A DNA stretch of 64,000 bases from Streptomyces sp. CB01635 (GTDB lineage Bacteria; Actinomycetota; Actinomycetes; Streptomycetales; Streptomycetaceae): NCBI RefSeq assembly GCF_002803065.1, contig NZ_NNBL01000017.1, positions 62,001 to 126,000 of the forward strand, read 5' to 3'. Positions 31,258 to 57,926 of the stretch are shown here, one piece after another. The position numbers and the translations under genes are program-made. The notes below the pieces were generated by a model. The model saw nothing but the letters and a program-made list of their open reading frames with translations, was not told the origin of the DNA and ran no database searches. Within the stretch, counting starts at the first letter, position 1. Each line of letters begins with the position of its first letter.

Positions 31258-31380
31258 TCAGGAGCAACAGAGCGCGCCGGCCACGCGCATCAGATCGATG
31301 TGCGGTCGGGAGTACAGGTGCAGGCGGTGGAGCGAGGCGGGTTTCACGGCGTGGAGGCGGGACACAGGACGCAGGCGCAT
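31258..31380 (-). CDS. Leader peptide with Cys-Cys end, upstream of the LLM operon
   Basis: A 40-residue ORF, ATG 31380 preceded by GGAGG eight bases away, ending LYSRPHIDLMRVAGALCCS. The core PHIDLMRV matches the other short ORFs of this window, and the tail has two adjacent Cys before the stop. Ribosome stalling at Cys codons when charged tRNA-Cys is scarce could open the downstream genes. The next gene starts 76 bases later. Confidence 0.8.
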   Translation of the reverse strand: MRLRPVSRLHAVKPASLHRLHLYSRPHIDLMRVAGALCCS

Positions 31381-32427: not shown

Positions 32428-32493
32428 ATGCCCTGGAACGGCTTGACGAGACGCCTGCACATCGATCTGTTGCGCGTCTCCAGCGCTTACTGA
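32428..32493 (+). CDS. Leader peptide lacking Cys, upstream of the GST-like gene
   Basis: A 21-residue ORF, MPWNGLTRRLHIDLLRVSSA, ending in Tyr and stop. The core RRLHIDLLRVSSA is the best fit to the family consensus. The last codon is TAC where relatives would have Cys (TGC), one base away. GGTGGGA precedes the ATG. The downstream gene starts 111 bases later. Confidence 0.75.
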   Translation: MPWNGLTRRLHIDLLRVSSAY

Positions 32494-35485: not shown

Positions 35486-35572
35486 TCAGCTACACAGCGC
35501 GGCGGCGACACGCAACAGGTCAACGGCACGCCGCCGGGTGAACCGCAGAGAGATCCGCAGAGAGATCCGCAT
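35486..35572 (-). CDS. Leader peptide upstream of the haloperoxidase-like gene
   Basis: A 28-residue ORF starting at ATG 35572 with a short repeat (RISLRISLR), then FTRRRAVDLLRVAAALCS and stop. The core RRRAVDLLRV and the near-terminal Cys place it in the leader family. It is the same length (28 residues) as the leaders at 39191, 52443 and 54673. Confidence 0.8.
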   Translation of the reverse strand: MRISLRISLRFTRRRAVDLLRVAAALCS

Positions 35573-39470: not shown

Positions 39471-40178
39471 ATGCCCACATCTCTCTCCTCCTGGAACGAA
39501 CCCGAAGGACTCGCCGCGCGCGGCACGCTGATCGTGCTGGCCGGGCGGGGCGAACACGGCGGCGTGTACGAGCGGTTCGGCCGCCGGCTCGCGTTCGACG
39601 CCTACCGCGTGCGTGCCCTCGGTGACCCGTCCGCGGACCCGTCGGTGCTCGAAGAGGCCGCCAAACTCCTCGCCGACGAGACGCTGTCCGGGCCGAAGGT
39701 GCTCGTCGGCTCGGACACCGGGGCTCGGTACGCCGCCCACCTCGCCGCCGAGCAGACGCCCGGGATCGACGCTCTGATCCTCGCCGGCCTGCCTACCGCC
39801 CCCTGGGTCGCCGGGAGCTGGGACGCCGAACTCGAGGCACGCACCGCCTGCCCCACCCACCGGGGCCGTCTCACGAACGACCCGGACTTCCGGCGCGGAT
39901 CCCTCGACGAAGCCTCGGACCTACCGGAGCTCCGCCTCGATCTCGTCCGCGTCCCGGTGCTGGCCCTGCACGGCGCGGAGGACACCGTCAGCCCCCTCGA
40001 CCAGGCGCTCAGCGCGTACGCGGGATTTGCCGGGGTGCGGACCGTCACTTTCAACAGCGGCCGCCACGACGTACTGAACGACGCGCTGCACCGCACGGCC
40101 GCCGCCACGGTCGTCCTCTTCCTGGAGCGGCTGCGCCTCTCCGCCGAACTGCCCCTGATCGCCGAGGACCTCGCATGA
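39471..40178 (+). CDS. Alpha/beta-hydrolase-fold protein
   Basis: A 235-residue protein: RGTLIVLAGRGEHGGVYERF, SGPKVLVGSDTGARYAAHLA, IDALILAGLPTAPWVAGSWD, VPVLALHGAEDTVSPLDQAL and VRTVTFNSGRHDVLNDALHR. Asp and His of the triad are visible, but the nucleophile elbow G-x-S-x-G reads G-S-D-T-G, putting Asp where Ser is usual. ATG 39471 follows AAAGGAG. It is the first gene of the operon after the leader and overlaps SseA by ATGA. It could release or hydrolyse a sulfur-compound side product; the substrate is unknown. Confidence 0.82.
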   Translation: MPTSLSSWNEPEGLAARGTLIVLAGRGEHGGVYERFGRRLAFDAYRVRALGDPSADPSVLEEAAKLLADETLSGPKVLVGSDTGARYAAHLAAEQTPGIDALILAGLPTAPWVAGSWDAELEARTACPTHRGRLTNDPDFRRGSLDEASDLPELRLDLVRVPVLALHGAEDTVSPLDQALSAYAGFAGVRTVTFNSGRHDVLNDALHRTAAATVVLFLERLRLSAELPLIAEDLA

Positions 40179-41023
40179 CAGCCCGCGTGACGACGACGGT
40201 CGCCGAGCTCGACACCCTGCTGCACTCCGACGCCCCGCCGGTGCTGCTCGACGTCCGCTGGGCGCTCGGCGATCCGCATGGCCGCGTCCACTATGCGGCC
40301 GGGCACATCCCTGGTGCGGTGTACGTCGATCTGGACACCGAGCTGGCCGCGCCGCCGAGCCCGACCGGTGGCCGTCATCCGCTGCCGGACCTTGCGGATC
40401 TGCAGGCCGCCGCGCGGGGGTGGGGCGTGCGGGCCGGGCGGCCGGTCGTGGTGTACGACGACTCGGGGAACACGGCCGCGGCTCGGGCGTGGTGGCTGCT
40501 GCGCTACGCCGGCGTGGCCGACGTGACACTCCTGGACGGGGCGTTGAGTGCCTGGCGCTCGGCCGGGCAGCCCCTGGAGTCCGGTGCGCCCGCCGATCAG
40601 GCGCCGGGTGACATCGTTTTGCGTCCGGGCGGGCTGCCGGTCACCGACGCGGACGGTGCCGCCGAACTCGTCGCGAGGGGGCTCCTGTTGGATGCCCGAG
40701 CGGCCGAGCGGTACCGGGGTGAAGTGGAGCCGGTGGACCCGCGTGCGGGCCACATCCCGGGCGCGGTCTCCGCGCCGACCGGGGAGAACCTCGCGGCCGA
40801 CGGGACCTTCCTGCCCGCCGAGGTGCTGCGCAAGAGGTTCGCGAGCAGGGGCGCCGCCGAAGCCGCCCGCGTCGGCGTCTACTGCGGCTCCGGCGTCACC
40901 GCCGCCCATCAGATCGCCGCGCTGGCCCTGGCCGGTTTCGACGCGACGCTCTTCCCAGGTTCCTGGTCCTCCTGGTCCGCCGATCCCGCACGTCCCGCCG
41001 TGACCGGCCCCCTGCCGTCCTGA
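40175..41023 (+). CDS. sseA: Double-rhodanese sulfurtransferase (SseA-like)
   Basis: A 282-residue protein with two rhodanese domains. The N-domain has LLDVRWALGDPHGRVHYAAG, HIPGAVYVDLDTELA; the C-domain has LLLDARAAERYRGEVEPVDP, RAGHIPGAVSAPTGENLAAD and the active Cys in RVGVYCGSGVTAAHQIAALA. It moves sulfane sulfur between thiosulfate or mercaptopyruvate and acceptors such as cyanide or thiols. It is coupled to the hydrolase (ATGA) and 27 bases before the permease gene. A decayed paralogue is at 33399. It probably handles sulfur released by the operon's monooxygenase. Confidence 0.92.
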   Translation: MTARVTTTVAELDTLLHSDAPPVLLDVRWALGDPHGRVHYAAGHIPGAVYVDLDTELAAPPSPTGGRHPLPDLADLQAAARGWGVRAGRPVVVYDDSGNTAAARAWWLLRYAGVADVTLLDGALSAWRSAGQPLESGAPADQAPGDIVLRPGGLPVTDADGAAELVARGLLLDARAAERYRGEVEPVDPRAGHIPGAVSAPTGENLAADGTFLPAEVLRKRFASRGAAEAARVGVYCGSGVTAAHQIAALALAGFDATLFPGSWSSWSADPARPAVTGPLPS

Positions 41024-41049
41024 GGCGACGCGAGAGGAATTCCCCCATC

Positions 41050-41958
41050 ATGACGACAAAACCGATCGGTCTGACGGCCACAGCGCCGCCGGATGAAGAC
41101 GACCCCACACCCGAGATCGACATCGCGCCCTCGAAGGGGGCGCCCGCACCGCGCGTCATCATCCGCGGCACCGCGCGCACGGCCCGCCGTCTTACCGTTC
41201 CCCGCTCGGTACGCCGTGCCGCAGGGCCCGCGGGTCTCGTACTCCTCTGGCTTCTGACGTCGACCACCGGCGTACTCCCCGAGTCCGTGCTCGCCTCGCC
41301 CATGGACGTGCTGGATCAGGCCGTCGAACTGACGAAGAGCGGCGAACTCCCCAGCGCCATCGCCGCGTCGGGACGCCGGGCCGCCACCGGCTTCCTCATC
41401 GGTGCGGTGATCGCGCTGAGCCTGTCCCTGCTGGCCGGTCTCTTCCGGCTCGGGGAGGACGTCATCGACTCCTCGATGGGCATGTTCCGGGCGATCCCCT
41501 GGGTGGGTCTCATCCCCCTGTTCATCGTCTGGTTCGGCATCGAGGAGACCCCGAAGATCGCGCTGGTCGCGCTCGGCGTGACCTATCCGCTGTACTTCAA
41601 CATCTACGGCGGCATCCGCTCCACCGACTCCCAACTCGTCGAGGCCGCACGGATGATGGGCCTCAGCAGGCTGGGCCTGATCCGGTACGTCATCCTGCCC
41701 AGCGCGCTGCCCGGAGCGCTGGTGGGTCTGCGGTACGCGCTCTCCACCGCCTGGCTGGCGCTCGTCTTCGCCGAGCAGGTCAATGCCGACGCCGGGCTCG
41801 GCTACCTGATGAGCAACGCCCAGCAATACTTCCGCACGGACATCATCGTGCTCTGCCTCGTCGTGTACGCGCTGCTCGGTCTCGCCTGTGACTTCGCCGT
41901 ACGCATCCTCTCGCGCCGGCTGCTGACCTGGCGATCCAACTTCGACGGCGAGGCCTGA
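41050..41958 (+). CDS. ssuC: Aliphatic sulfonate ABC transporter permease
   Basis: A 302-residue permease with a long cytoplasmic N-tail and about six helices: AGPAGLVLLWLLTSTTGVLP, GFLIGAVIALSLSLLAGLF, AIPWVGLIPLFIVWFGIEET and KIALVALGVTYPLYFNIYGG. The EAA loop is EAARMMGLSRLGLIRYVILP and the end reads DIIVLCLVVYALLGLACDFA. This is the SsuC/TauC/NrtB type that imports sulfonates, taurine or nitrate; the operon decides for sulfonates. It is two bases from the ATPase gene. Confidence 0.93.
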   Translation: MTTKPIGLTATAPPDEDDPTPEIDIAPSKGAPAPRVIIRGTARTARRLTVPRSVRRAAGPAGLVLLWLLTSTTGVLPESVLASPMDVLDQAVELTKSGELPSAIAASGRRAATGFLIGAVIALSLSLLAGLFRLGEDVIDSSMGMFRAIPWVGLIPLFIVWFGIEETPKIALVALGVTYPLYFNIYGGIRSTDSQLVEAARMMGLSRLGLIRYVILPSALPGALVGLRYALSTAWLALVFAEQVNADAGLGYLMSNAQQYFRTDIIVLCLVVYALLGLACDFAVRILSRRLLTWRSNFDGEA

Positions 41959-41960
41959 CA

Positions 41961-42719
41961 ATGACCGCCTCTGTTCTCAACAGCGTAGAGATCCGCGGGC
42001 TTTCACGCGCCTTCGACGGCCACACCGTCCTGCACGATCTCGACCTCGACATCCGCGAGGGCGAGTTCGTGGCCCTGCTCGGCCACAGCGGCTGCGGCAA
42101 GTCGACCCTGCTGCGCATCCTCGCCGGGCTCGACGACGAGATCGGCGGCGAGGTCACCGTGCCCGAGCGGCGCAGCGCCGCCTTCCAGTCACCCCGGCTG
42201 CTCCCCTGGCTGAAGGTGTGGCGCAACGTCATCCTCGGGCTGCCCGGACGGCCCGACCGCACGCTCGCCGAGCGGGCACTGGACGAGGTCGGCATCGCGG
42301 AGCGGGCAGCCGTCTGGCCGAAGACTCTCTCCGGAGGTCAGGCCCAGCGTGTCTCGCTGGCACGCGCTCTCGTCCGCGAGCCCGAGCTCCTGCTCCTCGA
42401 CGAGCCGTTCGGCGCGCTGGACGCGCTGACCCGGGGCAGGGTGCAGCAGCTGGTCGCCGAGCTGTGGCAGCGGCACGGCTGCGCGATCCTCCTGGTCACG
42501 CATGACGTGGAGGAGGCGCTGCTGCTCGCCGACCGTGTTCTCGTGATGGACGAGGGGCGCATCGCCCACGACCTCACCGTCGACCTGCCCCGCCCCCGGG
42601 ATCTCACCGCGCCCGAGTTCGTCACCCTCCGCGCCCGCCTCCTCGGATGGCTCGGCGTTATCCACACCAACGCTCCGGCCGACGCCGGCACCCGTACCCC
42701 CGAAGGGATCCCCTCGTGA
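41961..42719 (+). CDS. ssuB: Aliphatic sulfonate ABC transporter ATPase
   Basis: A 252-residue ATPase. Walker A is LLGHSGCGKSTLLRI, the Q-loop AAFQSPRLLPWLKV, the signature LSGGQAQRVSLARALV, Walker B ELLLLDEPFGALDAL, and the switch His is in ILLVTHDVEEALLLAD. The short length and AFQSPRLLPW fit SsuB/TauB. It energises import through the permease encoded directly upstream. Its stop overlaps the GTG of the binding-protein gene (GTGA at 42716). Confidence 0.94.
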   Translation: MTASVLNSVEIRGLSRAFDGHTVLHDLDLDIREGEFVALLGHSGCGKSTLLRILAGLDDEIGGEVTVPERRSAAFQSPRLLPWLKVWRNVILGLPGRPDRTLAERALDEVGIAERAAVWPKTLSGGQAQRVSLARALVREPELLLLDEPFGALDALTRGRVQQLVAELWQRHGCAILLVTHDVEEALLLADRVLVMDEGRIAHDLTVDLPRPRDLTAPEFVTLRARLLGWLGVIHTNAPADAGTRTPEGIPS

Positions 42720-43687
42720 TACGCCGACTCGCCGCCGCCGCGCTGAGCCTCTCCGCCCTGCTGACGCTCACCGCCTGCGGCGCCGACTCCTCTGCCGACG
42801 CCGCCGGCAGCGAGGACGCGGTCACCCTGACCATCGGTGACCAGGCCAAGACCCTCCAGACCATCGTGGCCGCCTCCGGCGCGCTCAAGGGTGCCGACTA
42901 CAAGGTGAAGTGGGCGGAGTTCGAGGGTGCGGCCCCGCTCTACCAGGCCGTTCAGGCGGGCGCCGCCGACACCGCGTACTCCGCCGATCTGCCCGCACTC
43001 CAGGCGCTCAGCGGCGGGGTGAAGTTCAAGAACGTCGCCGCGCTCAAGAACGACGGCCGGCACGTCGGAATCGTCGTCCGCAAGGGCTCGGGCATCAGCC
43101 GCGTCAAGGACCTCAAGGGCCAGAAGGTCGTGGTGTCCTCGGCGAAGGGCAGTATCTCCGAGTACCTGCTGGCCAACGTGCTCAGGCAGAACGGACTCAA
43201 GTACTCCGACGTGAAGGTCCAGTACCTGCTGCCGACCGACGCGCAGGCCGCTTTCTCCTCCGGGAAGCTCAAGGCCTGGGCGACCTTCGGCGTATACCAG
43301 GCCGTCGGCCTGGGACAGGGCGGCCGCCTCCTCGTCGACGGCGCCGACGGGCGCGTCAGCGGGTACGGCTTCATCGGCGCCTCGGACAAGGCGCTGGCGA
43401 ACTCGGCGAAGAAGGCCGCGCTCAGTGACTTCCTGCGGCGCCTGACCACGGCCCTGACCTGGACGAGTACACACCAGGACGCGTACGCCGACGCCATCGT
43501 CGAGCGCAACGGCGCCGACGCCTCCGTGGCCAAGACGCTCGCCTCCGCCGCGTACAGCAAGGTCCTGCCGATCACCTCCGATGTGAACGGGACCGTTCAA
43601 GGCGTGGCCGATCTGATGCACGGCATCGGCGTCCTCGACCCGAACGTGGACGTGGCGAAGTCCGCCGACACCTCCGTCCTCAAGTGA
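42716..43687 (+). CDS. ssuA: Sulfonate ABC transporter substrate-binding lipoprotein
   Basis: A 323-residue lipoprotein. The signal ends LSALLTLTACGADSS (lipobox T-A-C). The NMT1/SsuA-like fold shows VTLTIGDQAKTLQTIVAASG, KVKWAEFEGAAPLYQAVQAG, VGIVVRKGSGISRVKDLKGQ and SYGFIGASDKALANSAKKAA-type C-terminal helices. GTG 42716 is chosen because it lies at the signal peptide start, with AAGGGATCC upstream and overlap with the SsuB stop. It captures the substrate outside the membrane for SsuBC. Confidence 0.92.
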   Translation: MIRRLAAAALSLSALLTLTACGADSSADAAGSEDAVTLTIGDQAKTLQTIVAASGALKGADYKVKWAEFEGAAPLYQAVQAGAADTAYSADLPALQALSGGVKFKNVAALKNDGRHVGIVVRKGSGISRVKDLKGQKVVVSSAKGSISEYLLANVLRQNGLKYSDVKVQYLLPTDAQAAFSSGKLKAWATFGVYQAVGLGQGGRLLVDGADGRVSGYGFIGASDKALANSAKKAALSDFLRRLTTALTWTSTHQDAYADAIVERNGADASVAKTLASAAYSKVLPITSDVNGTVQGVADLMHGIGVLDPNVDVAKSADTSVLK

Positions 43688-48718: not shown

Positions 48719-49315
48719 TCACGCCGGGTAGGGAGCGGCGTTGCGCGCAGACCGGAGCGCGGCAGCCCACCAGGCCAATTGGTCGAGCAGCGTCTTGGCG
48801 TACCCGGGGGCCTCAGGGGCGAGGGGATGGCCGTCCTGCCACGCCGTGAAGTAGTTCGGAAAGGCCAGACCATCGCGAATCGTCACCGCGTGCAACTCGG
48901 TCAGCACGTTCTCCAGGTGCAGCACCGCGTGCCGACCACCTGCTGCACCGCCGTAGCTGACGAAGGCGACGGGCTTGGCCGTCCACTGGGTGAAATGCCA
49001 GTCGATGGCCGCCTTCAACGACGCGGGATAGCTGTGGTTGTACTCCGGGGTGACCACGATGAACGCGTCAGCGTTCTCCAGAGCCGACGTCAGTGCCGCC
49101 ATCCCTGCCGGACGGGGGTAGTCATCGCCGGCGAACTTCGGCGATGCCGCAGGCAGCGCCAACGGGATGTCGATCTCGGCCAGATCGACGACTTCCACAT
49201 CGAAACCACCGTGAATGCCTGCCTGTTCGACGACCCACGAGGCCACAACGGGGCCGAAACGTCCATCCCGGACGCTTCCGACGATGATCACCAGCTTGTG
49301 CTTAATCTTTTCCAT
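48719..49315 (-). CDS. NAD(P)H-dependent FMN reductase
   Basis: A 198-residue flavodoxin-fold reductase: KLVIIVGSVRDGRFGPVVAS, DVEVVDLAEIDIPLALPAAS, ADAFIVVTPEYNHSYPASLK, AAIDWHFTQWTAKPVAFVSY and GGAAGGRHAVLHLENVLTEL. The GSVR phosphate loop and PEYNHSYP are typical of ArsH/SsuE-like NADPH:FMN reductases. It could supply FMNH2 to the nearby LLM enzymes. ATG 49315. It is divergent from an MmyB-like regulator, with a 12-base palindrome in between that is probably its operator. Confidence 0.9.
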   Translation of the reverse strand: MEKIKHKLVIIVGSVRDGRFGPVVASWVVEQAGIHGGFDVEVVDLAEIDIPLALPAASPKFAGDDYPRPAGMAALTSALENADAFIVVTPEYNHSYPASLKAAIDWHFTQWTAKPVAFVSYGGAAGGRHAVLHLENVLTELHAVTIRDGLAFPNYFTAWQDGHPLAPEAPGYAKTLLDQLAWWAAALRSARNAAPYPA

Positions 49316-49359
49316 GCCCACCACGATCAGGCCGCTCCGTGGCTCCAGCCAGACCGTAT

Positions 49360-49388
49360 TCAGGCTGGCCCCCACAGGGCCAGCCTGA
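49360..49388. promoter_or_regulatory. Perfect 12-base palindrome between reductase and regulator
   Basis: TCAGGCTGGCCC-CCACA-GGGCCAGCCTGA. It lies 44 bases upstream of the reductase start and 39 bases upstream of the regulator start. The position suits an operator of the MmyB-like protein encoded at 49428. Confidence 0.7.
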
Positions 49389-49427
49389 GCACTCCGCGAT
49401 CAGCGGGCAGCACCCTATGCTCCCAAC

Positions 49428-50264
49428 ATGGGTACGCCGTTAGGGGACTTCATCCGGGCCAAGCGCGACAGCACCCAGCCGGAATCGCTGGGCCTACCGG
49501 ATCGCGGCCGCCGCCGGTCACCGGGTCTACGACGCCTGGATCTCGCCGCGCGGGCCGGCATCAGCGTCGAATACCTGACCCGCATCGAACAGGGCCGTGA
49601 CCGTAATCCTTCTGTGGCGGTGGTGAACGCGCTGGCCGATGCGCTCAACCTCGACCCGTCGGAACGCAACCACCTGCGCTACCTCGCAAAGATCACTGGC
49701 GGCGAATGTTCCGCTCACACCCGGCCCGCACCGCCGCGCCGCGACGTCCGTCCGTCGGTCCTGGAGACACTCCGCCTCCTTGAACCGGGGATCGCCATCG
49801 TGACCAACCGGCTGGGCGACATCCTCGCCCACACCGGCGGCTACGAGTCCGTGACCAGCGGAACCGGACTGCTCGACGCCGACACCCCGAACCTCACCCG
49901 CTACCTCTTCACCGACCCTCGCGCCCGGACGTTCTTCGCCGACTGGGACGACGTCGCGGACGAGCAGGTCTTCGACCTGTGGCTCGCGCCGTCCGTCGAG
50001 AACTCCGAGTGGCTCACCCGAGAACTAGCCCCCATCGCCAGCCCCGACTTCACGCGCCGCCTGAACCGTCACGTGGTTCCGCAACGTGGAGCCCTCCGCC
50101 TCAACCACCCGTCCGGATGCGAGCTGCTGCTGCTCCGCGAGACGCTCGAACTCTCCTCGGGCGCTCAGCAACTGGTCGTCTTCCTCCCCGCGGACGAGAG
50201 GACGGCCCAGGCCGTCGACCAACTCCGCCGCCGGTCCCCCAGCCGGCTCCGGGTAATCTCCTGA
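49428..50264 (+). CDS. MmyB-like helix-turn-helix regulator
   Basis: A 278-residue protein with an N-terminal HTH (PGLRRLDLAARAGISVEYLT, RIEQGRDRNPSVAVVNALAD) and an MmyB PAS-like domain (LLEPGIAIVTNRLGDILAHT, LTRYLFTDPRARTFFADWDD). It resembles the regulator at 8640 but is clearly distinct. It is divergent from the FMN reductase gene across a perfect palindrome, so it most likely controls that gene and itself. The ligand is unknown; family members may bind fatty-acid-like molecules. Confidence 0.9.
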   Translation: MGTPLGDFIRAKRDSTQPESLGLPDRGRRRSPGLRRLDLAARAGISVEYLTRIEQGRDRNPSVAVVNALADALNLDPSERNHLRYLAKITGGECSAHTRPAPPRRDVRPSVLETLRLLEPGIAIVTNRLGDILAHTGGYESVTSGTGLLDADTPNLTRYLFTDPRARTFFADWDDVADEQVFDLWLAPSVENSEWLTRELAPIASPDFTRRLNRHVVPQRGALRLNHPSGCELLLLRETLELSSGAQQLVVFLPADERTAQAVDQLRRRSPSRLRVIS

Positions 50265-50300
50265 CTCCCCTTGACCCCACGGGACCCGGGCCGGATCGCA

Positions 50301-50366
50301 AATTTGGACATACGACAGCGAGCACGACTAGGCGGCACCCTCCACGAATACCAACATGCGGCCTGA
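50301..50366 (+). mobile_element. Integrase-core transposase fragment (C-terminal tip)
   Basis: The frame NLDIRQRARLGGTLHEYQHA ends with Ala and stop, matching the last 20 residues of the same transposase family (D-I-R-x-x-x-R-L-G-G-x-L-H-E-Y). Only the tip is left. Confidence 0.6.
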
Positions 50367-50516
50367 CCAGCATGGATGAGGTATTCGGCAAGCGCACCGC
50401 ACTGGGCATAGCGCCAAGTTCACGGCGAACTCAAAAGGGGCGCGCGCGTCGTAGGGACCACACCTCCGCCCGCCGGGCCGATCGGGACGGCGCCGTGCGC
50501 CGCCGGTCGTCGTCAA

Positions 50517-51263
50517 TCACAAAGGCCTCGGCCCGCTGCCTGTTCCTGGCGTGCGCACCTGAAGGATCCGGGTGCGAGTGCGCAGGGTGAAGCCGATCGA
50601 CTGGTACAGGCGGATCGCCGTCTTGTTGGTGGCCGCGGCATGCAGGAACGGTGTCTCCCCGCGTTCTCTGATGCCCGCCGCGACCGCGCGTACCAGTCGC
50701 GTCGCGAGGCCCTGCCCGCGGTGGGCCGGGTCGGTGCAGACCGCGCTGATCTCCGTCCAGCCGGGCAGCCGCAGCCGTTCACCGGCCAGCGCGATCAGCC
50801 TCCCCTGTTGCCTGATGCCCAGGTAGGTGCCGAGCTCCACGGTCCGTGCGAGGAACGGCCCCGGTCGGGTGCGGGCGACCAGCTCAAGGATCTCCGGTAC
50901 GTCGCCGGGCCCAAGCCGCACCGCCTCCGGCGCGTGCTCGGGCCGGAGGGACACATCGACCAGCTGGACTCCGCGCCCGCCACCGACCACCTCCCACCCC
51001 GACGGAACCCGGTCAACCCCCTTCACACGCACGGTCGTCGACGGTCCGGCGAGCGTGTGCAGGTCCGCCCAGGCGGCGGGGTCCGCGGGATCGGCGAGCG
51101 CGGCGAACCCGTACATGTCCGCCGGGTAGCGGGCAGCCCTGCCCAGCCTCTCGGCGAAGTGGATGTGTGGTCCGGTCAGGGCGGCCCAAACGGCGTTGTC
51201 CAGATGTCGTGTGTTCGGGGTGATCGCGGCTCCGTCGCCACGAACGTCGATCGGATACGCCAC
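50517..51263 (-). CDS. GNAT family N-acetyltransferase
   Basis: A 248-residue protein. The N-terminal half (NTRHLDNAVWAALTGPHIHF, AARYPADMYGFAALADPADP) is an extra domain; the C-terminal GNAT fold has LGPGDVPEILELVARTRPGP, GWTEISAVCTDPAHRGQGLA (acetyl-CoA loop) and TPFLHAAATNKTAIRLYQSI, ending FTLRTRTRILQVRTP. It transfers acetyl from acetyl-CoA, possibly to a thiol or amine. GTG 51263. A Cys-rich leader lies 112 bases upstream, implying sulfur control. A truncated paralogue with its own leader is at 31491. Confidence 0.87.
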   Translation of the reverse strand: MAYPIDVRGDGAAITPNTRHLDNAVWAALTGPHIHFAERLGRAARYPADMYGFAALADPADPAAWADLHTLAGPSTTVRVKGVDRVPSGWEVVGGGRGVQLVDVSLRPEHAPEAVRLGPGDVPEILELVARTRPGPFLARTVELGTYLGIRQQGRLIALAGERLRLPGWTEISAVCTDPAHRGQGLATRLVRAVAAGIRERGETPFLHAAATNKTAIRLYQSIGFTLRTRTRILQVRTPGTGSGPRPL

Positions 51264-51375
51264 GGAACAGGGGCCTTTCGTGATGCGTGAGCGGGCATCG
51301 AGTTGCGACGGACCGGGCGCCGTACAGGAAGGACGGGGGTGGTCTCCTCACATCTCGAGGGATGGTGAGGGAACG

Positions 51376-51459
51376 TCAAAAGCATCGACACGCGCAGGCA
51401 TCCACCCGTGCCAGATCCACGTACAACCTGCGGTAGAGCGCTTGAGGGCTTTGGCTCAC
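51376..51459 (-). CDS. Leader peptide with three Cys, upstream of the GNAT gene
   Basis: A 27-residue ORF from GTG 51459 (preceded by GGGCAG): LYRRLYVDLARVDACACRCF and stop. The core RRLYVDLARV is followed by three Cys in five residues. The DNA around it is similar to that around the decayed leader at 23126. Confidence 0.8.
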   Translation of the reverse strand: MSQSPQALYRRLYVDLARVDACACRCF

Positions 51460-51762
51460 CTGCCCATGTCTAGCAGGCAGACGACCGAGGATTCATTGCA
51501 GAGGCATGAACTTTGACGGCCCGGCCGCAGAAGTCAACTGCCGCTGTCCAGGCACTTTCTTCAGCAATACCCGCTTCGTGATTGCCGAGCACAACCCACT
51601 CGGCCGGGGAGCGGCTGCCTATCGCCCCGGGGAACGCGCGGGCCGCGTTTCCGGGGCGACGGCCGGTCCTCGGCGTCGACCTGGGCAGGTCCGGCCTGGC
51701 GGCGAACGGCTGCCAGCCCTTCGCTGCAGGGAGTCACGTCGGGTGGGCCACGGCTGAGCGTA
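51460..51762. other. Promoter of the leader plus gene debris
   Basis: The first about 60 bases resemble the upstream region of the decayed leader at 23126, including TTCATGC and CTGCAATGA on the minus strand, so they probably hold the promoter. The rest contains no supported gene. Confidence 0.4.
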
Positions 51763-52164
51763 GTTGGCGGTGAACGTCCACTTCTTGGCGTCCTTGTCGG
51801 ACGTCCACTCGGTGGCGAGCCGGGGCTGGAGTCCGAAGTCCTTGTCCAACCAGACCAGATAGTCGGCGACGAGCTGAATGATGGCGACCGCCGAGCCGTC
51901 GTACGCGGTGACCGGGTCCACGAAGGTGGGCGGCGGGGGCGTGCCGTCGCGTAGGGTGCCGCCCCTCTTCGCGGGCCCGTTGGGCTTGCTGCCGCCGGAC
52001 TTGGTGTCGCCGGGTGCGCAGGCGGCGAGCAGCGCGGCCAGCGAACCGGCTCCGACGGCGGCCAGGAAGCCGCGGCGGGAGGTGCCGGGCAGGACCTCCC
52101 GCCAGACGCGCGGCGGGGCGCCGACGGTGGTACCGGGGTCGTTCCCGGTGAGCGGTCCAGGCAT
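51763..52164 (-). pseudogene. N-terminal remnant of a family-5 (Dpp-type) binding protein
   Basis: From ATG 52164 (GGAGA upstream) the product has a twin-arginine lipoprotein signal (SRRGFLAAVGAGSLAALLAA, Cys, APGD), then GGTLRDGTPPPPTFVDPVTA, IIQLVADYLVWLDKDFGLQP and RLATEWTSDKDAKKWTFT. This is the start of a peptide/nickel-type substrate-binding protein. Homology stops at about 51766 after some 130 of about 540 residues. A leader peptide at 52443 still precedes it, so regulation outlived the gene. Confidence 0.75.
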
Positions 52165-52224
52165 GGCGATGTCTCCAGGGGAGGGAGATGAGCGGGTGAG
52201 GGGACGCCGCGTACGGAATCAGTC

Positions 52225-52272
52225 GGCGGGCACCGGCGGGCACCGGCGGGCACCGGCGGGCACCGGCGGGCA
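52225..52272. repeat. Tandem repeat of GGCGGGCACC, nearly five copies
   Basis: The 10-base unit repeats without error over about 48 bases. It lies between the leader peptide (52443) and the truncated binding-protein gene (52164), so it would be part of the leader transcript. Confidence 0.85.
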
Positions 52273-52442
52273 GCATGGAGCGACGGCCGGCGATACGTAG
52301 GTGTGCCACCGGCACCGAGCCGACACTGATGTGCCATCGGCCCACCGGGCCGATACTGCGGAAATGAGCGTGCCGGGAGACGCGCAGCGCCGGGGCGCTG
52401 CGACGCGCGAGCGGCTTGCGCAGGCGCGCGTGGCCTACCGGA

Positions 52443-52529
52443 TCAGTCAGCCGTACACCGGCACGCGACCACACGCAGCAGGTCCACATGGAGCCTGCGC
52501 GTCAGAAGAGTGGTCGCTGTCGTCGTCAC
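52443..52529 (-). CDS. Leader peptide upstream of the truncated binding protein
   Basis: A 28-residue ORF from GTG 52529 (AGGA upstream): LLTRRLHVDLLRVVACRCTA followed by Asp and stop. It has the core RRLHVDLLRV and two Cys. Its 5' side faces the rhodanese-winged-helix regulator gene across an inverted repeat at 52571. Confidence 0.8.
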   Translation of the reverse strand: MTTTATTLLTRRLHVDLLRVVACRCTAD

Positions 52530-52570
52530 CCGTCATTCCTACCGAGCCCGCCCGGACGCCCGCAACGGTC

Positions 52571-52596
52571 CAGCTGTTTCAGCTTCGAGACAGCTG
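52571..52596. promoter_or_regulatory. Inverted repeat between leader and rhodanese-wHTH regulator
   Basis: CAGCTGTTTC-AGCTTC-GAGACAGCTG has nine of ten arm bases paired. A TGACGTCA palindrome follows at 52599-52606. It lies between the divergent starts at 52529 and 52655 and is a candidate operator for the regulator. Confidence 0.6.
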
Positions 52597-52654
52597 CATG
52601 ACGTCACGTCGATTACCCTCCCCTGGCCGGCACTTGGGTGCCTACGCTGGTCGG

Positions 52655-53441
52655 GTGGCCATCGATCAAGGCGATCTCCGCACCCCCCAGGACGGCCCTC
52701 CCTCCGTAGAAGACCTGGTTCACTCCGCCAGGTCCCGGCTGGACCGACTCACACCCGAACGGGCCGTCACCGAACTGGCCCACGGGGCGCTGCTGGTGGA
52801 CCTGCGCCTTGAGCCAACGAGGCGGCTTGGAGGTGAGATCCCCGGCTCTCTGCTCCTGGACCGCAACGACCTGGAGTGGCGGCTCGACCCGTGCAGCAAA
52901 TGGCGCATCGAGGAAGCGGTCGATCACGATCTGCGGGTCATCCTCATGGACAGCCGGGGCGATGTCTCCAGCATGGCCGCGGTCGGCCTCCATGTGCTGG
53001 GGCTGCGCCGCACCACTGATGTGATTGGCGGATTCGACGCCTGGCAACGGGCGGGGTGCCCGGTGGTCCACAGCGTCACGATGACCGGTTCGTACGTCGG
53101 GGTGCCCGGCGGGGCGATAGTGCTGGATCACGGCGGTCAGGGAATGGTGGTCAACGGCCGGCCAGTACCGCTGACCCGCCTGGAGTTCAAGGTGATGGCC
53201 ACGCTGCTACGGGCAAGCGGCGGTGTGGTCTCACGGGAGCAGTTGCGGGCCGACATCGGCGACTGGGCCGGCAGCCGCAGCCGCTCGGTGGACCTCCATG
53301 TCCACCGCATACGCCGTAAGTTGGGCCGTGAACTGGCCGCCTCGCTCACCACGGAATGGGGGGGTTGGCTTCCGGCTGCGCACGGGGGGCGCGACGGAGG
53401 ACGAACCGGGGCGCGAGAGCGATCCGAGGCGGGACGATTGA
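52655..53441 (+). CDS. Rhodanese-like domain fused to an OmpR/PhoB-type winged helix, frameshifted
   Basis: Residues about 20-140 are a rhodanese fold (TPERAVTELAHGALLVDLRL, GEIPGSLLLDRNDLEWRLDP, RVILMDSRGDVSSMAAVGLH, TDVIGGFDAWQRAGCPVVH). The loop that would carry the active Cys reads LMDSRGDVSS, with Asp instead of Cys. Residues about 165-240 are a winged helix (LTRLEFKVMATLLRASGGVV, SREQLRADIG, SRSVDLHVHRIRRKLGRELA). The family's GVGFRL ending lies in the next frame after a run of seven G (53358-53364); with six G the protein ends at 53441. GTG 52655 may be leaderless, with TACGCT close by. Probably a sulfur-responsive regulator. Confidence 0.78.
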
Positions 53442-53658
53442 GGACGAGGCGCGTCGGCTCGGGAGGAGGCGTGCGGGGCTCAGGGCTGTGTTTGGGTGTG
53501 CCCGCGTTGCAGCGCGGGTCGGAAAGGTACGCCCATGGTCAACGTAGTCACCGCCGACAGCTCCACCAGTCCGCTCTTTGCGCGTCGGATCGAGCTGGGC
53601 GGGAGGCCTACGGGTAGGTTCCGCCGGGCGCCCGCGGAGCCGGCGCATCAGGGGCGGG

Positions 53659-54573
53659 CTATTCGCGAGTGATCGCGCTGCCGAGGGAGCCCGCCTGGGC
53701 CCGCAATGACGCGTGCAAGGCCCGCACGGCCCTCGGCACGTCGCCCGTGCGGCGCTGCAACACCACCAGCACGCGTGTCGTCTCATCAAGAAGCGGTCGG
53801 TACGTGATCAGGCCCGCCCGCTCCAGCGGGTCGCCCGCCACGCTGAAGTCGGGCAGCAACGTGACGCCCAGGCCCTCGGCGACCAGGACCTTGCCGAGTT
53901 CGGCGCCGTCCGTGGAGTAGGCGAACTGCGGGGCGCTGCCGCTGAACAGCCGGTGGGCGTAGCGGTGCATGACATAACCCGTGCGCATCCCGATCAACGG
54001 GACCCCCGCCAGGTCGGCGGGGGCGAGGGCGCTCCGCTCGGCCAGTGGGTCGTCGGCGCGCAGGCACACCACCGGGCGGCCGCGCAGCAACTCGGTCGTG
54101 TGCAGGTCGGGCGGAGTGTCGTCGCCGTCGAGGTAGTTGACCAGACCGAGGTCGAAGCGGCCCTCGCGCAGACCCCGGTGGATGTCGTCCTGTTGCGAGC
54201 CGACCATTTCGACCTGCGTCGCTGGGTGTTCGGCGCGGAAGTCGCGGACAGCGGGCACGAGGAGCGGAACCGTCGCCGCGTTCACCGTGCCGACCCGTAC
54301 CATCCGGCTGCTGTGGTGCTGGTCGTGCGCCGCGCGGCGCAGTCGGTCCACAGATTCCAGGACACCGATGATGTGGGGCAGCAGCTCCCGCCCCTCGTCG
54401 CTGACCTTGGCACCCGAGCGGTGCCGGTCGAGCAGTGCGACGCCCAGTTCACGCTCCAGGTTGCGCACCGTCTCGCTCAACGCGGGCTGGGAGATGTGCA
54501 GTTCGGACGCCGCGCGGCGCAGCGAGCCGAGCCGGGTCACCGCCTCGATGTACTCCAGCTGTTCGGTCCGCAC
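53659..54573 (-). CDS. LysR family regulator of the SsuE/SfnB/SsuD operon
   Basis: A 304-residue LysR protein. The HTH is RTEQLEYIEAVTRLGSLRRA, ASELHISQPALSETVRNLER; the effector domain has MVRVGTVNAATVPLLVPAVR, VEMVGSQQDDIHRGLREGRF and VPLIGMRTGYVMHRYAHRLF. GTG 54573 is chosen because AAGGAG lies six bases upstream; the frame continues uselessly upstream. It is divergent from a leader peptide and the reductase/monooxygenase operon, so it is likely the operon's activator under sulfur limitation. Confidence 0.9.
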   Translation of the reverse strand: MRTEQLEYIEAVTRLGSLRRAASELHISQPALSETVRNLERELGVALLDRHRSGAKVSDEGRELLPHIIGVLESVDRLRRAAHDQHHSSRMVRVGTVNAATVPLLVPAVRDFRAEHPATQVEMVGSQQDDIHRGLREGRFDLGLVNYLDGDDTPPDLHTTELLRGRPVVCLRADDPLAERSALAPADLAGVPLIGMRTGYVMHRYAHRLFSGSAPQFAYSTDGAELGKVLVAEGLGVTLLPDFSVAGDPLERAGLITYRPLLDETTRVLVVLQRRTGDVPRAVRALHASLRAQAGSLGSAITRE

Positions 54574-54608
54574 CCGGATCTCCTTGCTACCCCCAACGTG
54601 TAAGGGAA

Positions 54609-54621
54609 ACCCTATCAGGGT
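54609..54621. promoter_or_regulatory. Possible LysR site
   Basis: The short palindrome ACCCT-ATC-AGGGT lies 36 bases upstream of the LysR start and 52 bases before the leader peptide. The arms are short, so this is a weak call. Confidence 0.35.
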
Positions 54622-54672
54622 CTCGTGATTACCGACTCGACGGACCGGCCGAACGGCTGCTTGAATCGGGGC

Positions 54673-54759
54673 ATGGATGCAGGGCGACAGGAACTCACGC
54701 GGCGACGTCACGTCGACCTCGCGCGGGTCTGTAGTGCCGCCTGTTGCCTTTCCAGCTGA
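54673..54759 (+). CDS. Leader peptide with Cys-Cys, upstream of the SsuE operon
   Basis: A 28-residue ORF from ATG 54673: ELTRRRHVDLARVCSAACCL followed by Ser-Ser and stop. It has the core RRRHVDLARV and three Cys, two adjacent. The reductase gene starts 165 bases later. Confidence 0.82.
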   Translation: MDAGRQELTRRRHVDLARVCSAACCLSS

Positions 54760-54924
54760 GCCCTTTCGCGGCCTCTCGCACCCGAACTCCTCCCGCCTGC
54801 CCGGCGGTCGAGGACTGCCATGTGTGCGACCAGCTCCCCAGCCGCGGCCGCCGCGTCGCATTCGCGGCCCGTCCCTGTCGCGCCCGTTCCGCAGCCCGAC
54901 TCACTCATCCTGCAAGGACTTACT

Positions 54925-55479
54925 GTGGCCTTTCTCCTCACCCTCACCGGCAGCGCCTCCGCCCCCGGCGCCTCCCGTACCGCCCATCTCGTCGCGCACC
55001 TGGGGCGGCAGTTCGCCGAGGACGGCCACGAGGTCCGCCACTTCGACGTGCGCAGCCTGCCCGCCGAGGCGCTGCTGTCAGCCGACGCCAAGGACCCCGA
55101 GGTCGCGCGGGCCGTCGAGCTCGTGGCGCGCGCCGACGCGCTGATCGTCGCCAGCCCCGTGTACAAGGCCGCGTACTCGGGAGTCCTGAAGACCTTCCTC
55201 GACCTGTTGCCGCAGTACGCGCTGCGTGACAAGGCCGTGCTGCCGCTGGCCACCGGCGGTTCCCCCGCACACGTCCTCGCCGTCGACTACGCGCTGCGCC
55301 CCGTACTCACCTCGCTGGGCGCCGACGTCGCGCAGGGGTGGTTCGTCCTCGACCGACACATCACGGTCGACGCCGACCGCACCGTCACGCTCGCGCCCGA
55401 GGCACACGACGCGCTCGCCCCGGTCGTCGAACGGTTCCGCGCCGCCCTGCCCGCCGGCTCCCGGCTCGCCGCCGCCTGA
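54925..55479 (+). CDS. ssuE: NADPH-dependent FMN reductase (SsuE/MsuE-like)
   Basis: A 184-residue flavodoxin-fold enzyme: FLLTLTGSASAPGASRTAHL (phosphate loop), ARADALIVASPVYKAAYSGV, LKTFLDLLPQYALRDKAVLP and LATGGSPAHVLAVDYALRPV. The SPVYKAAYSG and LPLATGGS motifs are typical of SsuE/MsuE. It makes FMNH2 for SsuD in the same operon. GTG 54925 follows AAGGACTTACT; the upstream extension to 54820 is not supported. It is expected to be controlled by the leader and the LysR protein. Confidence 0.92.
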   Translation: MAFLLTLTGSASAPGASRTAHLVAHLGRQFAEDGHEVRHFDVRSLPAEALLSADAKDPEVARAVELVARADALIVASPVYKAAYSGVLKTFLDLLPQYALRDKAVLPLATGGSPAHVLAVDYALRPVLTSLGADVAQGWFVLDRHITVDADRTVTLAPEAHDALAPVVERFRAALPAGSRLAAA

Positions 55480-55541
55480 CCCATGGCTATCGGCTTTCCC
55501 TTTCACCTCACCGTCCCTCACTCCGCGGAAAGGCCCACGCC

Positions 55542-56756
55542 ATGAACCGCGCCACCCACACCACCCGTGTCACACCGTTCGGCCCGGACAGCACGGAAGC
55601 CGAGGTACTGGTCGTTGTGCGGCAGTTGGCTGCCCGGTTCAGCACCGAGGATGCCCGGCGCGACGCCGAGCGCATCCTTCCGTACGAGGAGATCCGCACC
55701 CTGAGCGGAGCGGGCCTGTTCACCCTGAGCGTGCCGAAGGCGTACGGCGGGCCCGGCCTCTCCACGCGCACGCTCGGCGAGGTGTTCACTGAGCTGGTCG
55801 CGGGCGACGCGAGCATCGGGCAGATCCCGCAGAACCACTTCTTCTTCGTCAATGTCCTGGCCAGTGCCGGGACACCGGAGCAGCAGGCGTTCTTCTACGA
55901 GGAGATCCTCCGCGGCCGCCACTTCGCCAACGCCCTGTCCGAGCGCGGCTCGCGCACCGCACGGGACTTCGAGATCGGCTTCGCGCGGCAGCCCGACGGC
56001 AGCCGGATCCTGAACGGCACCAAGTACTACGCCACCGGCACCCTGTTCGCGCACTGGATCCCCGTCTACGCCGCCGACGAGGAGGGCCGGGTACACGCGG
56101 CCTGGGTGCCCGCCGACGAGCCCGGTGTCACCGTCGAGGACGACTGGAACGGCATGGGGCAGCGCACCACCGGCAGCGGCACCGTCCGCTTCGAGCAGGT
56201 CCGGGTGCCCGCCGAGCGGATCGTGCCGGTGTACACGATCTTCGAGAAGGACGAGGTGTTCGGCGCGTTCGGGCAGTACCTGCACGCCGCCATCGACACC
56301 GGCATCGCGGTCGCCGCGCTGCGCGACGGGAAGCGGCTCATCCACGAACTGGCCCGGCCCCGCAAGGAGACCGGCCTGGACCGGGCCGCCGACGAGGAGG
56401 CGATCATCGATCTCTTCGGGGAACTGGCGCTGGGCGTGCGCACCGCCCGCGCCCTGCTGCGCGAGGCGGGAGACGCCGTGGACGCGGCCCGCGCCGACCT
56501 AAACACCCTTACCGCGGCGGAGGCTTCGGCCGCCGTCGCCGCGGCCCGCGCCCACTCCGACGAGGTCTCCCTGAAGGTCTCCAGCGGCATCTTCGAACTG
56601 ATCGGCACCCGCGCCGCCGACCGGGATCTCAACCTGCACCGGCACTGGCGCAACGCTCGCACCCACACCCTGCACGACCCCCGCCGTCTCAAGCTCCGCT
56701 ACCTCGGCGGCTGGGAGCTCAACGACACCCCGCCGCCCGCCAACGGCCTGGTCTGA
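55542..56756 (+). CDS. SfnB-type acyl-CoA-dehydrogenase-like monooxygenase
   Basis: A 404-residue protein: AEVLVVVRQLAARFSTEDAR, LFTLSVPKAYGGPGLSTRTL, DASIGQIPQNHFFFVNVLAS, DGSRILNGTKYYATGTLFAH, WNGMGQRTTGSGTVRFEQVR and NLHRHWRNARTHTLHDPRRL. The IPQNHFFFV and HWRNARTHTLHDP motifs match SfnB and DszC-like flavin monooxygenases of sulfur metabolism (dimethyl sulfone or DBT oxidation). ATG 55542 follows GGAAAGG. It lies between the FMN reductase and SsuD genes, consistent with a two-component pathway. Confidence 0.9.
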   Translation: MNRATHTTRVTPFGPDSTEAEVLVVVRQLAARFSTEDARRDAERILPYEEIRTLSGAGLFTLSVPKAYGGPGLSTRTLGEVFTELVAGDASIGQIPQNHFFFVNVLASAGTPEQQAFFYEEILRGRHFANALSERGSRTARDFEIGFARQPDGSRILNGTKYYATGTLFAHWIPVYAADEEGRVHAAWVPADEPGVTVEDDWNGMGQRTTGSGTVRFEQVRVPAERIVPVYTIFEKDEVFGAFGQYLHAAIDTGIAVAALRDGKRLIHELARPRKETGLDRAADEEAIIDLFGELALGVRTARALLREAGDAVDAARADLNTLTAAEASAAVAAARAHSDEVSLKVSSGIFELIGTRAADRDLNLHRHWRNARTHTLHDPRRLKLRYLGGWELNDTPPPANGLV

Positions 56757-56780
56757 CCCCCGCCCTGCCTAAGGACTCCC

Positions 56781-57926
56781 ATGTCTCTGACCTTCCACTG
56801 GTTCCTGCCCACCAACGGCGACAGCCGCCACATCGTCGGCGGCGGCCACGGCGTCCCCACCGGCTCGGCCGGCGGCGACCGCCCCGCCTCGCTCGCCTAC
56901 CTCGGCCAAGTCGCCCGTACAGCCGAGCAGCTGGGCTTCGACGGGGCGCTCACACCGACCGGCGCCTGGTGCGAGGACGCCTGGCTGACCACGGCGATGC
57001 TCGTCGAGCAGACGGAGCGCCTGAAGTTCCTCGTGGCGTTCCGGCCAGGGCTGGTCGCACCCGCGCTCGCCGCGCAGATGGCCGCCACCTATCAGCGTCA
57101 TTCGGGCGGGCGGCTGCTCCTGAACGTCGTCACGGGTGGCGAGGACCACGAGCAGCGCGCGTACGGCGACTTCCTCGACAAGGAGGCCCGCTACGCCCGC
57201 ACCGACGAGTTCCTGCACATCACCCGTGCCCTGTGGCGCGGCGAGACCGTCGACTTCGACGGGGAGCACGAGCGGGTCGCCGAGGCCCGACTGACCCGGC
57301 TGCCCGACCCGGTGCCGCCCGTCTACTTCGGCGGCTCGTCGAAGGCGGCGGGCCCGGTCGCCGCGCGCCACAGCGACGTGTACCTCACCTGGGGCGAGCC
57401 GCCTGCGCAGGTCGCCGAGAAGATCGACTGGATCCGGACGCTGGCGAAGGCGGAGGGCCGGGACATCCGCTTCGGCATCCGGCTGCACGTCATCGCGCGC
57501 GACACGGCGCAGGAGGCATGGGCTCAGGCGCACCGGCTGCTGTCCGGCATCGACCCGAAGATCATCGCGAACGTCCAGGCGGGGCTCGCCCGTTCGGGAT
57601 CGGAGGGGCAGAAGCGGATGCTCGCGCTGCACGGCGGCAGCGCCGACGGCCTGGAGATCTACCCGAACCTGTGGGCCGGCGTCGGCCTCGTGCGAGGCGG
57701 CGCCGGCACCGCCCTCGTCGGCTCGCACACCGAGATCGCCGACCGTATCGCCGAATATCACGCCCTGGGCATCGACGAGTTCGTGCTCTCCGGCTATCCG
57801 CACGTGGAGGAGGCGTACTGGTTCGGCGAGGGCGTGCTCCCGGTGCTCGCCGAACGCGGGCTGTGGCACCACCCGGACGCGGCGGGCCTCGACCGGACTC
57901 CGGCGGCGGTTCCGTTCGCCTCGTAA
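56781..57926 (+). CDS. ssuD: FMNH2-dependent alkanesulfonate monooxygenase
   Basis: A 381-residue SsuD. It starts SLTFHWFLPTNGDSRHIVGG, then EQLGFDGALTPTGAWCEDAW, LKFLVAFRPGLVAPALAAQM, GRLLLNVVTGGEDHEQRAYG, DFLDKEARYARTDEFLHITR and PPVYFGGSSKAAGPVAARHS. The active-site Cys and His regions of SsuD (GAWCEDAW, DHEQRAYGDF) are in place. It converts alkanesulfonates to aldehydes plus sulfite using FMNH2 from SsuE. It ends the operon 15 bases before a strong bidirectional hairpin. Confidence 0.95.
   Translation: MSLTFHWFLPTNGDSRHIVGGGHGVPTGSAGGDRPASLAYLGQVARTAEQLGFDGALTPTGAWCEDAWLTTAMLVEQTERLKFLVAFRPGLVAPALAAQMAATYQRHSGGRLLLNVVTGGEDHEQRAYGDFLDKEARYARTDEFLHITRALWRGETVDFDGEHERVAEARLTRLPDPVPPVYFGGSSKAAGPVAARHSDVYLTWGEPPAQVAEKIDWIRTLAKAEGRDIRFGIRLHVIARDTAQEAWAQAHRLLSGIDPKIIANVQAGLARSGSEGQKRMLALHGGSADGLEIYPNLWAGVGLVRGGAGTALVGSHTEIADRIAEYHALGIDEFVLSGYPHVEEAYWFGEGVLPVLAERGLWHHPDAAGLDRTPAAVPFAS

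Follow-up and report, generated by a model that had tools for sequence, protein, structure and literature searches.

A rhodanese–winged-helix fusion: a rare candidate local regulator of actinobacteria and its probably decaying copy in a Streptomyces genome

A two-domain gene and its divergent neighbors

The window considered here is the whole 64-kb stretch of DNA that was analyzed (G000:C9:62001-126000), which belongs to a 10.06-Mb genome of 61 contigs that reads as Streptomyces-like in the genes it carries. It contains a gene in which a rhodanese is joined to an OmpR-type winged helix, and opposite this gene lie a leader peptide and the stub of a transporter protein. The features of the locus, in window coordinates, are as follows.

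52655..53366, plus strand: gene for the fusion of Rhodanese and OmpR-type winged helix (Pfam); GTG start; the listed frame is open until 53617
53358..53364, plus strand: run of seven G; in the DNA as sequenced the coding frame is broken here, by a frameshift or an error of sequencing
53361..53441, plus strand: displaced frame with the wing end GVGFRLRTGGATEDEPGRESDPRRDD, then TGA (stop at 53439-53441)
52571..52596: inverted repeat CAGCTGTTTC-N6-GAGACAGCTG, with 10-nt arms that are 90% complementary
52558..52591: element conserved with the genome G869, 29 of 34 positions identical without gaps; probable operator and -35 region of the leader promoter
52443..52529, minus strand: Cys-type leader peptide VTTTATTLLTRRLHVDLLRVVACRCTAD, from GTG at 52529 to a stop at 52443
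52224..52272: perfect 10-bp tandem repeat, CGGCGGGCAC in 4.9 copies, between the leader and the binding-protein stub
51769..52164, minus strand: truncated gene for a family-5-type ABC binding lipoprotein, a stub of about 132 residues, by homology to the G869 protein

Both domains of the fusion lie in a single open frame that starts at the GTG at 52655: a Rhodanese domain at residues 40 to 132 (27.5 bits against a Pfam cut-off of 22.2) and a Trans_reg_C domain, that is, the OmpR-type winged helix, at residues 168 to 235 (profile positions 1 to 71 of 77; 47.3 bits against a cut-off of 26.2). The fusion has no N-terminal receiver domain of the kind found in two-component response regulators, Rhodanese and Trans_reg_C being the only domains that Pfam gives. 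Its winged helix also matches the C-terminal part of the NCBIfam profile NF005568 (uroporphyrinogen-III synthase), at 27.5 bits and thus far under the cut-off of 273. A predicted structure of the fusion, made from a nine-row alignment, was too poor for use (mean pLDDT, 46.4; pTM, 0.34). Among the structure matches listed (one set being the best 60 of 75), no solved chain convincingly spans both domains; 1ys6, a weak match, covers residues 78 to 223 in one comparison and the DNA-binding part alone in another.

The frame that bears the two domains does not carry the end of the wing, since the motif GVGFRLR... lies out of frame relative to it in the DNA as sequenced. The four other fusions described below have GVG(F/Y)R in frame at the same place (as GVGFRLR or GVGYRW), and a complete in-frame C-terminal wing hairpin is present in these four and absent in the window copy. 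The original prediction of one gene with a rhodanese and an OmpR-type domain therefore stands insofar as both Pfam domains share one frame, but not as to an intact frame to 53441: the domain-bearing frame runs to 53617, and the position 53441 is the stop of the displaced frame, so that the end coordinate proposed for the gene crosses the frameshift. The assembly fits a real frame break or a sequencing error, and we infer that decay is probably the cause.

On the divergent side, the Cys-type leader had been predicted opposite the fusion and was found there. It scores 21.2 bits against the NCBIfam profile NF042934, “putative leader peptide” (19.6 bits in the genome search), which is under the cut-off of 27; three other matches in the window, at 31267-31323 (minus strand), 32443-32487 (plus strand), and 35492-35545 (minus strand), are over it. 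The binding-protein gene beyond the leader is truncated. The stub is 52% identical to the G869 binding protein over 123 aligned columns, and the homology ends at 51769; the window’s other oligopeptide-type transporter, at 59 to 64 kb, is a relative at 29 to 43% in pieces.

The claim that the gene sits in sulfur-scavenging surroundings is borne out by an SsuE-like FMN reductase at 54820 (profile search) and an SfnB at 55338, both over their cut-offs. The other sulfur proteins are under theirs, namely, an alkanesulfonate monooxygenase-like protein at 56781 and all of the SsuCBA-like and MST-like proteins at 40175-43687. A further leader peptide, ...LTRRRHVDLARVCSAACCLSS (54694-54744, plus strand; 24.3 bits, below the cut-off), stands ahead of the SsuE-SfnB-monooxygenase genes at 54820-57926, and a leader-like sequence, ...LYRRLYVDLARVDACACRCF (51388-51441, minus strand; 17.5 bits, below the cut-off), stands just past the stub and ahead of an acetyltransferase gene at 50517-51263. 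In G220, a genome labelled as the same species, the fusion query found no match at 1e-37, and homology to the window ends at 49772 in a comparison that covered 49000-57900; the segment is therefore strain-variable. Pieces of 50307-50432, about 40 to 125 bases long, match nine places in G220 at 75 to 86%, perhaps as a dispersed repeat.

The closest relative and the intergenic element

The closest relative of the window protein, at 62% identity, is the fusion of G869, which is intact, with its Cys and a full wing. There the fusion gene is divergent from a leader, VTRTTALTRRLHVDLQRVGASVCPRF (28.1 bits against NF042934 and thus over the cut-off), which is followed by a binding protein (SBP_bac_5 in Pfam), two permeases, and an ATPase, making up a complete ABC transporter. 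The genes around the G869 pair are, by a reading of their translations, not evidently sulfur genes. The reading as a divergent, local regulator that acts at the intergenic repeat gains support from this comparison: the orthologous fusion lies opposite a leader and a transporter of like kind, the same element lies between them, and the segment SRSRSVDLHVHRIRRKL, which contains the DNA-recognition helix in domains of the OmpR type, is identical in the two proteins.

The inverted repeat itself is present as predicted, and CAGCT occurs three times in its region, at 52571, 52580, and 52591. An equally good repeat arose in 26 of 1,000 dinucleotide shuffles of the 125-bp intergenic region, and the same count over the 64-kb window gave 133 (nested matches counted separately). 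Such repeats are common in the window, and the repeat was rejected as proof on its own. The 34-bp element shared with G869 covers most of it, and the conservation of most of the repeat in G869 is beyond chance, with none of 500 shuffle pairs as good (best shuffle score, 12, against 19). A 17-bp core, TGTTTCAG(A/C)TTCGAGAC, is the same at 16 of 17 positions in the two genomes, and its distance to the leader start is 46 nt in the window and 45 nt in G869. The inverted repeat is more symmetric in the window than in G869, where the lower symmetry leaves room for reading the site as direct repeats or in some other way.

The element ends just above a -35-like hexamer, TTG(C/T)GG, with TAGGAA or TTGAAT 17 to 18 nt past the hexamer and the leader start 6 nt further, all as read by eye. 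Placed thus in the sequence, the element would sit where an activator site usually does, and its placing is compatible with a leaderless leader transcript; the window leader is probably carried on a leaderless mRNA. Scans of 52100-53700 for sigma-70 promoters (under a strict setting) and for terminators found none, and 51000-55000 holds no riboswitch or other Rfam element at the gathering score. A single GTYTC-N6-GARAC is present in the window against an expected 0.22, and 20 of 100 shuffles have one or more.

Could the element belong to a different regulator, or be the core promoter of the leader only, with the fusion merely adjoining it? We regard this as quite unlikely. The element does run into the -35-like hexamer, and leaders of this kind are common, the window’s genome having 36 NF042934 matches at E<=10 and 12 over the cut-off. 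Against this, the exact element occurs once in the window’s genome and once in G869, the two fusion genomes compared, and has no exact copy in the fusion-less G220. We prefer to read the element as the probable operator of the fusion. Sites with three mismatches are somewhat in excess over a backward control (6 against 2 in the window’s genome, 3 against 0 in G869, and 7 against 4 in G220), and all six of those in the window’s genome recur in G220, without a fusion. With a single exact site in each of these two fusion genomes and all six looser sites of the window’s genome shared with G220, a global sulfur regulon is not supported; a regulon beyond the divergent operon is not visible in either of the two.

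Related fusions and the lost cysteine of the window copy

Rhodanese domains of the window kind are widespread, with a match at E<=1e-20 in 114 of 150 genomes, the window’s genome counted. At each of four such loci that were opened (L002, L024, L025, and L052), the rhodanese follows a cysteine-dioxygenase gene (Pfam CDO_I over the cut-off for the first three; identified by reading for L052), and in L002 a leader peptide stands ahead of the dioxygenase gene. Two-domain fusions without stops are rare: among the genomes searched, they were found only in the window’s genome, G113, G471, G518, and G869. The searches covered 150, 392, 394, 297, 35, and 8 genomes in overlapping draws, at thresholds of 1e-20, 1e-37, 1e-45, and 1e-60, at which a divergent fusion could be missed. 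A scan of genome contigs gave 14 loci, none above 48% identity and each matched over part of the query, and of 23 matching plasmid records none covers 80% of the query. Some matches that extend past the rhodanese part contain internal stops, e.g., G780 (9-238), G040 (6-224), and G060 (17-211), and could be broken or misread fusions.

The four other fusions all keep the loop Cys and the full GVG(F/Y)R wing. Each passes both Pfam cut-offs and outscores the window copy on both domains (59.8 to 80.3 against 47.3 bits for Trans_reg_C and 33.9 to 43.1 against 27.5 bits for Rhodanese). In G113, G471, and G518 the fusion comes directly after a cysteine-dioxygenase gene (CDO_I at 71.8 bits in G113 and 67.5 bits in G471, against a Pfam cut-off of 23; identified by reading in G518), and in G518 a leader, MTARQVVTSVRLYRRTHLDLMRSVSTACRRG, precedes that gene. 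The sequence CTnGTTTCTCCAnTGACAT, with 0 to 2 mismatches, is a promoter element common to the three, ahead of the dioxygenase gene in each (L123 at 7435, L124 at 3547, and L125 at 8680). Among 174 loci, most of the others having short flanks and coming from other families, no genome but these three showed it (7 rows).

In the rhodanese tree, the window and G869 domains are sisters (support, 100/95), and the fusions of G113 and G518 pair with each other elsewhere (94/85, not starred). Mapping the fusion label on this tree takes two changes, and no tree among 200 bootstrap replicates manages with one; the tree is built from few columns, its bootstrap has not settled, its long rows are uncertain, and its starred branches alone are compatible with one origin of the fusion. 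That fusions are rare, and that the two fusion groups may have separate origins, would suit the view that they are chance joinings of an enzyme-like rhodanese to a winged helix with no control over its neighbor and no regulatory role. This view has to contend with two lineages that, at 62% identity between their proteins, have an identical recognition segment and a conserved element, and with the separate promoter element common to the three dioxygenase-operon genomes; we consider it very improbable, and we continue to read the fusions as candidate local regulators.

How should the active site of the window copy be understood? The original prediction read the loop as MDSRGDVSS, as it indeed appears in the translation, and took the rhodanese part to bind rather than transfer. 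The window domain has the rhodanese fold by profile and lacks the catalytic Cys, with Asp in its place in the loop DSRGDVSS. This loss is private to the window copy. Of 98 rhodanese-matching loci, a set from which four copies of the window’s own locus had been excluded beforehand, 92 passed a length and stop filter; the 84 distinct loci besides the window that were compared include the fusions of G869, G113, and G518, and all 84 have the Cys. The G471 fusion was dropped by the length filter (its alignment covers 44-138), and its Cys is visible in a separate alignment. The proposal of binding rather than transfer thus rests on a loop that no other domain compared shares, and since 84 of 84 keep the Cys, its absence here resembles decay, or a change private to this copy, more than a feature of the design.

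Among 39 columns conserved at 95% or more, the window copy also breaks 5, the loop Tyr among them; apart from the distant outgroup L009 (21 of 38), each of the other 83 rows breaks at most 3. Its rhodanese has evolved faster than that of its sister: the two branches are 1.01 and 0.22 long, an approximately 4.6-fold difference, and in relative-rate counts the window side exceeds the G869 side with all nine outgroups (from 13:9 to 19:3), with a chi-square above 3.84 in seven of the nine, the two below being the fusions L023 and L066. By a simple count over the aligned length, dN/dS between the window and G869 is about 0.39. The window gene has therefore been under selection for most of its history, and any slackening would be recent or partial.

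These observations bear on whether the window copy is functional after all, with a rhodanese fold that binds a sulfur ligand or a protein partner without catalysis and a frame break that is a sequencing error. The frame is damaged at one place in about 790 nt, and a lone G in a homopolymer run might be such an error; the dN/dS of about 0.39 and the unchanged segment SRSRSVDLHVHRIRRKL would fit a working protein, as would a repeat more symmetric than that of G869, and enzymatically inactive rhodanese domains that bind are described for TBC1D23 in the available text of PMC7274447. The conservation of the Cys in all of the other domains argues against this, as do the several changed conserved residues with the long branch and the lowest Pfam scores among the five fusions. 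Moreover, the likely target is gone, because the divergent binding protein is a stub. We judge a functional window copy to be unlikely and favor decay: with Cys changed to Asp, the wing out of frame, and the divergent binding protein cut to a stub, the window locus is probably decaying.

A proposed mechanism and its nearest precedents

In our preferred reading, which we hold with somewhat more confidence than doubt, the fusions are rare local regulators of actinobacteria in which the rhodanese serves as a sensor, and the window copy is one that is probably decaying. The fusion would be a one-component regulator, its rhodanese, of the cysteine-dioxygenase-operon kind, acting as the sensor and its OmpR-type winged helix as the DNA binder. 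We posit that the intact G869 form most likely binds the conserved element, which lies immediately before the -35 region of the promoter of the leader, and would thereby control the divergent leader and ABC importer. The likely signal would be a sulfane-sulfur or persulfide group loaded on the rhodanese catalytic Cys, and the state of the rhodanese domain would alter the binding of the winged helix to the element. In this model, cysteine supply would be checked a second time, through translation, by the leader peptide. Sulfur is a plausible signal given the rhodanese fold, the Cys-type leader, and the dioxygenase genes before three of the relatives; the surroundings of the G869 pair, with no evident sulfur genes, speak against it. 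We speculate more tentatively, as something possible but short of likely, that the fusions form an undescribed class of one-component regulators, in which the rhodanese Cys reads sulfane sulfur and the signal goes on to an OmpR-type DNA-binding domain, and that they arose twice in actinobacteria, in dioxygenase operons and opposite a leader-controlled importer.

If the intact relatives do sense persulfide through the rhodanese Cys, the enzyme intermediate itself would be the signal, and the control of both cysteine breakdown and an importer could be coupled directly to sulfur flux. The interesting proteins are then the intact relatives, i.e., that of G869 and those of the dioxygenase operons, and the window copy serves as a natural case of loss.

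By analogy, the nearest known design to the fusion is NnaR, which is not known to have a receiver domain. Like the fusion, it joins an N-terminal domain of enzyme fold to a DNA-binding domain: in the available text of PMC6277429, NnaR is an orphan response regulator of nitrate and nitrite in mycobacteria and Streptomyces, with a HemD-like domain and a response-regulator DNA-binding domain, and the HemD-like domain is reported to be without HemD activity in Streptomyces. The fusion differs from it in that its N-terminal half is Rhodanese by Pfam and not HemD-like, its context is sulfur and not nitrogen, and its reach is, as far as seen, local rather than multi-target.

Rhodanese-like domains within regulators have other precedents. 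According to the part of PMC3817168 that is available, ChrB has a C-terminal rhodanese and, by the same authors’ statement, ArsR proteins have rhodanese-like domains; in comparison with the fusion, the DNA-binding domains and the signals differ (chromate and arsenic), and the domain order is unlike that of ChrB. CstR, SqrR/BigR, and the Streptomyces ScCsoR are persulfide-sensing repressors through which sulfane sulfur controls sulfur genes (available parts of PMC9774590 and PMC7533328); unlike the fusion, they have other folds and sense by their own Cys residues, and those parts mention no rhodanese domain. Among the matches listed in searches of open-access papers, none described the fusion of a rhodanese with an OmpR-type winged helix.

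Within the window’s own genome, the rhodanese of L002, after its CDO_I gene, is 46% identical to the window protein over the rhodanese part; it is unlike it in standing alone, in keeping the loop CNEGYASS, and in having no DNA-binding domain. The leader also has a known counterpart, in that mycobacteria have cysteine-responsive leaderless short open reading frames with Cys codons ahead of an operon (cited in the available part of PMC9031893). The window leader is unlike these: it belongs to the TRRLHVDLxRV kind, and its two Cys codons stand apart from each other.
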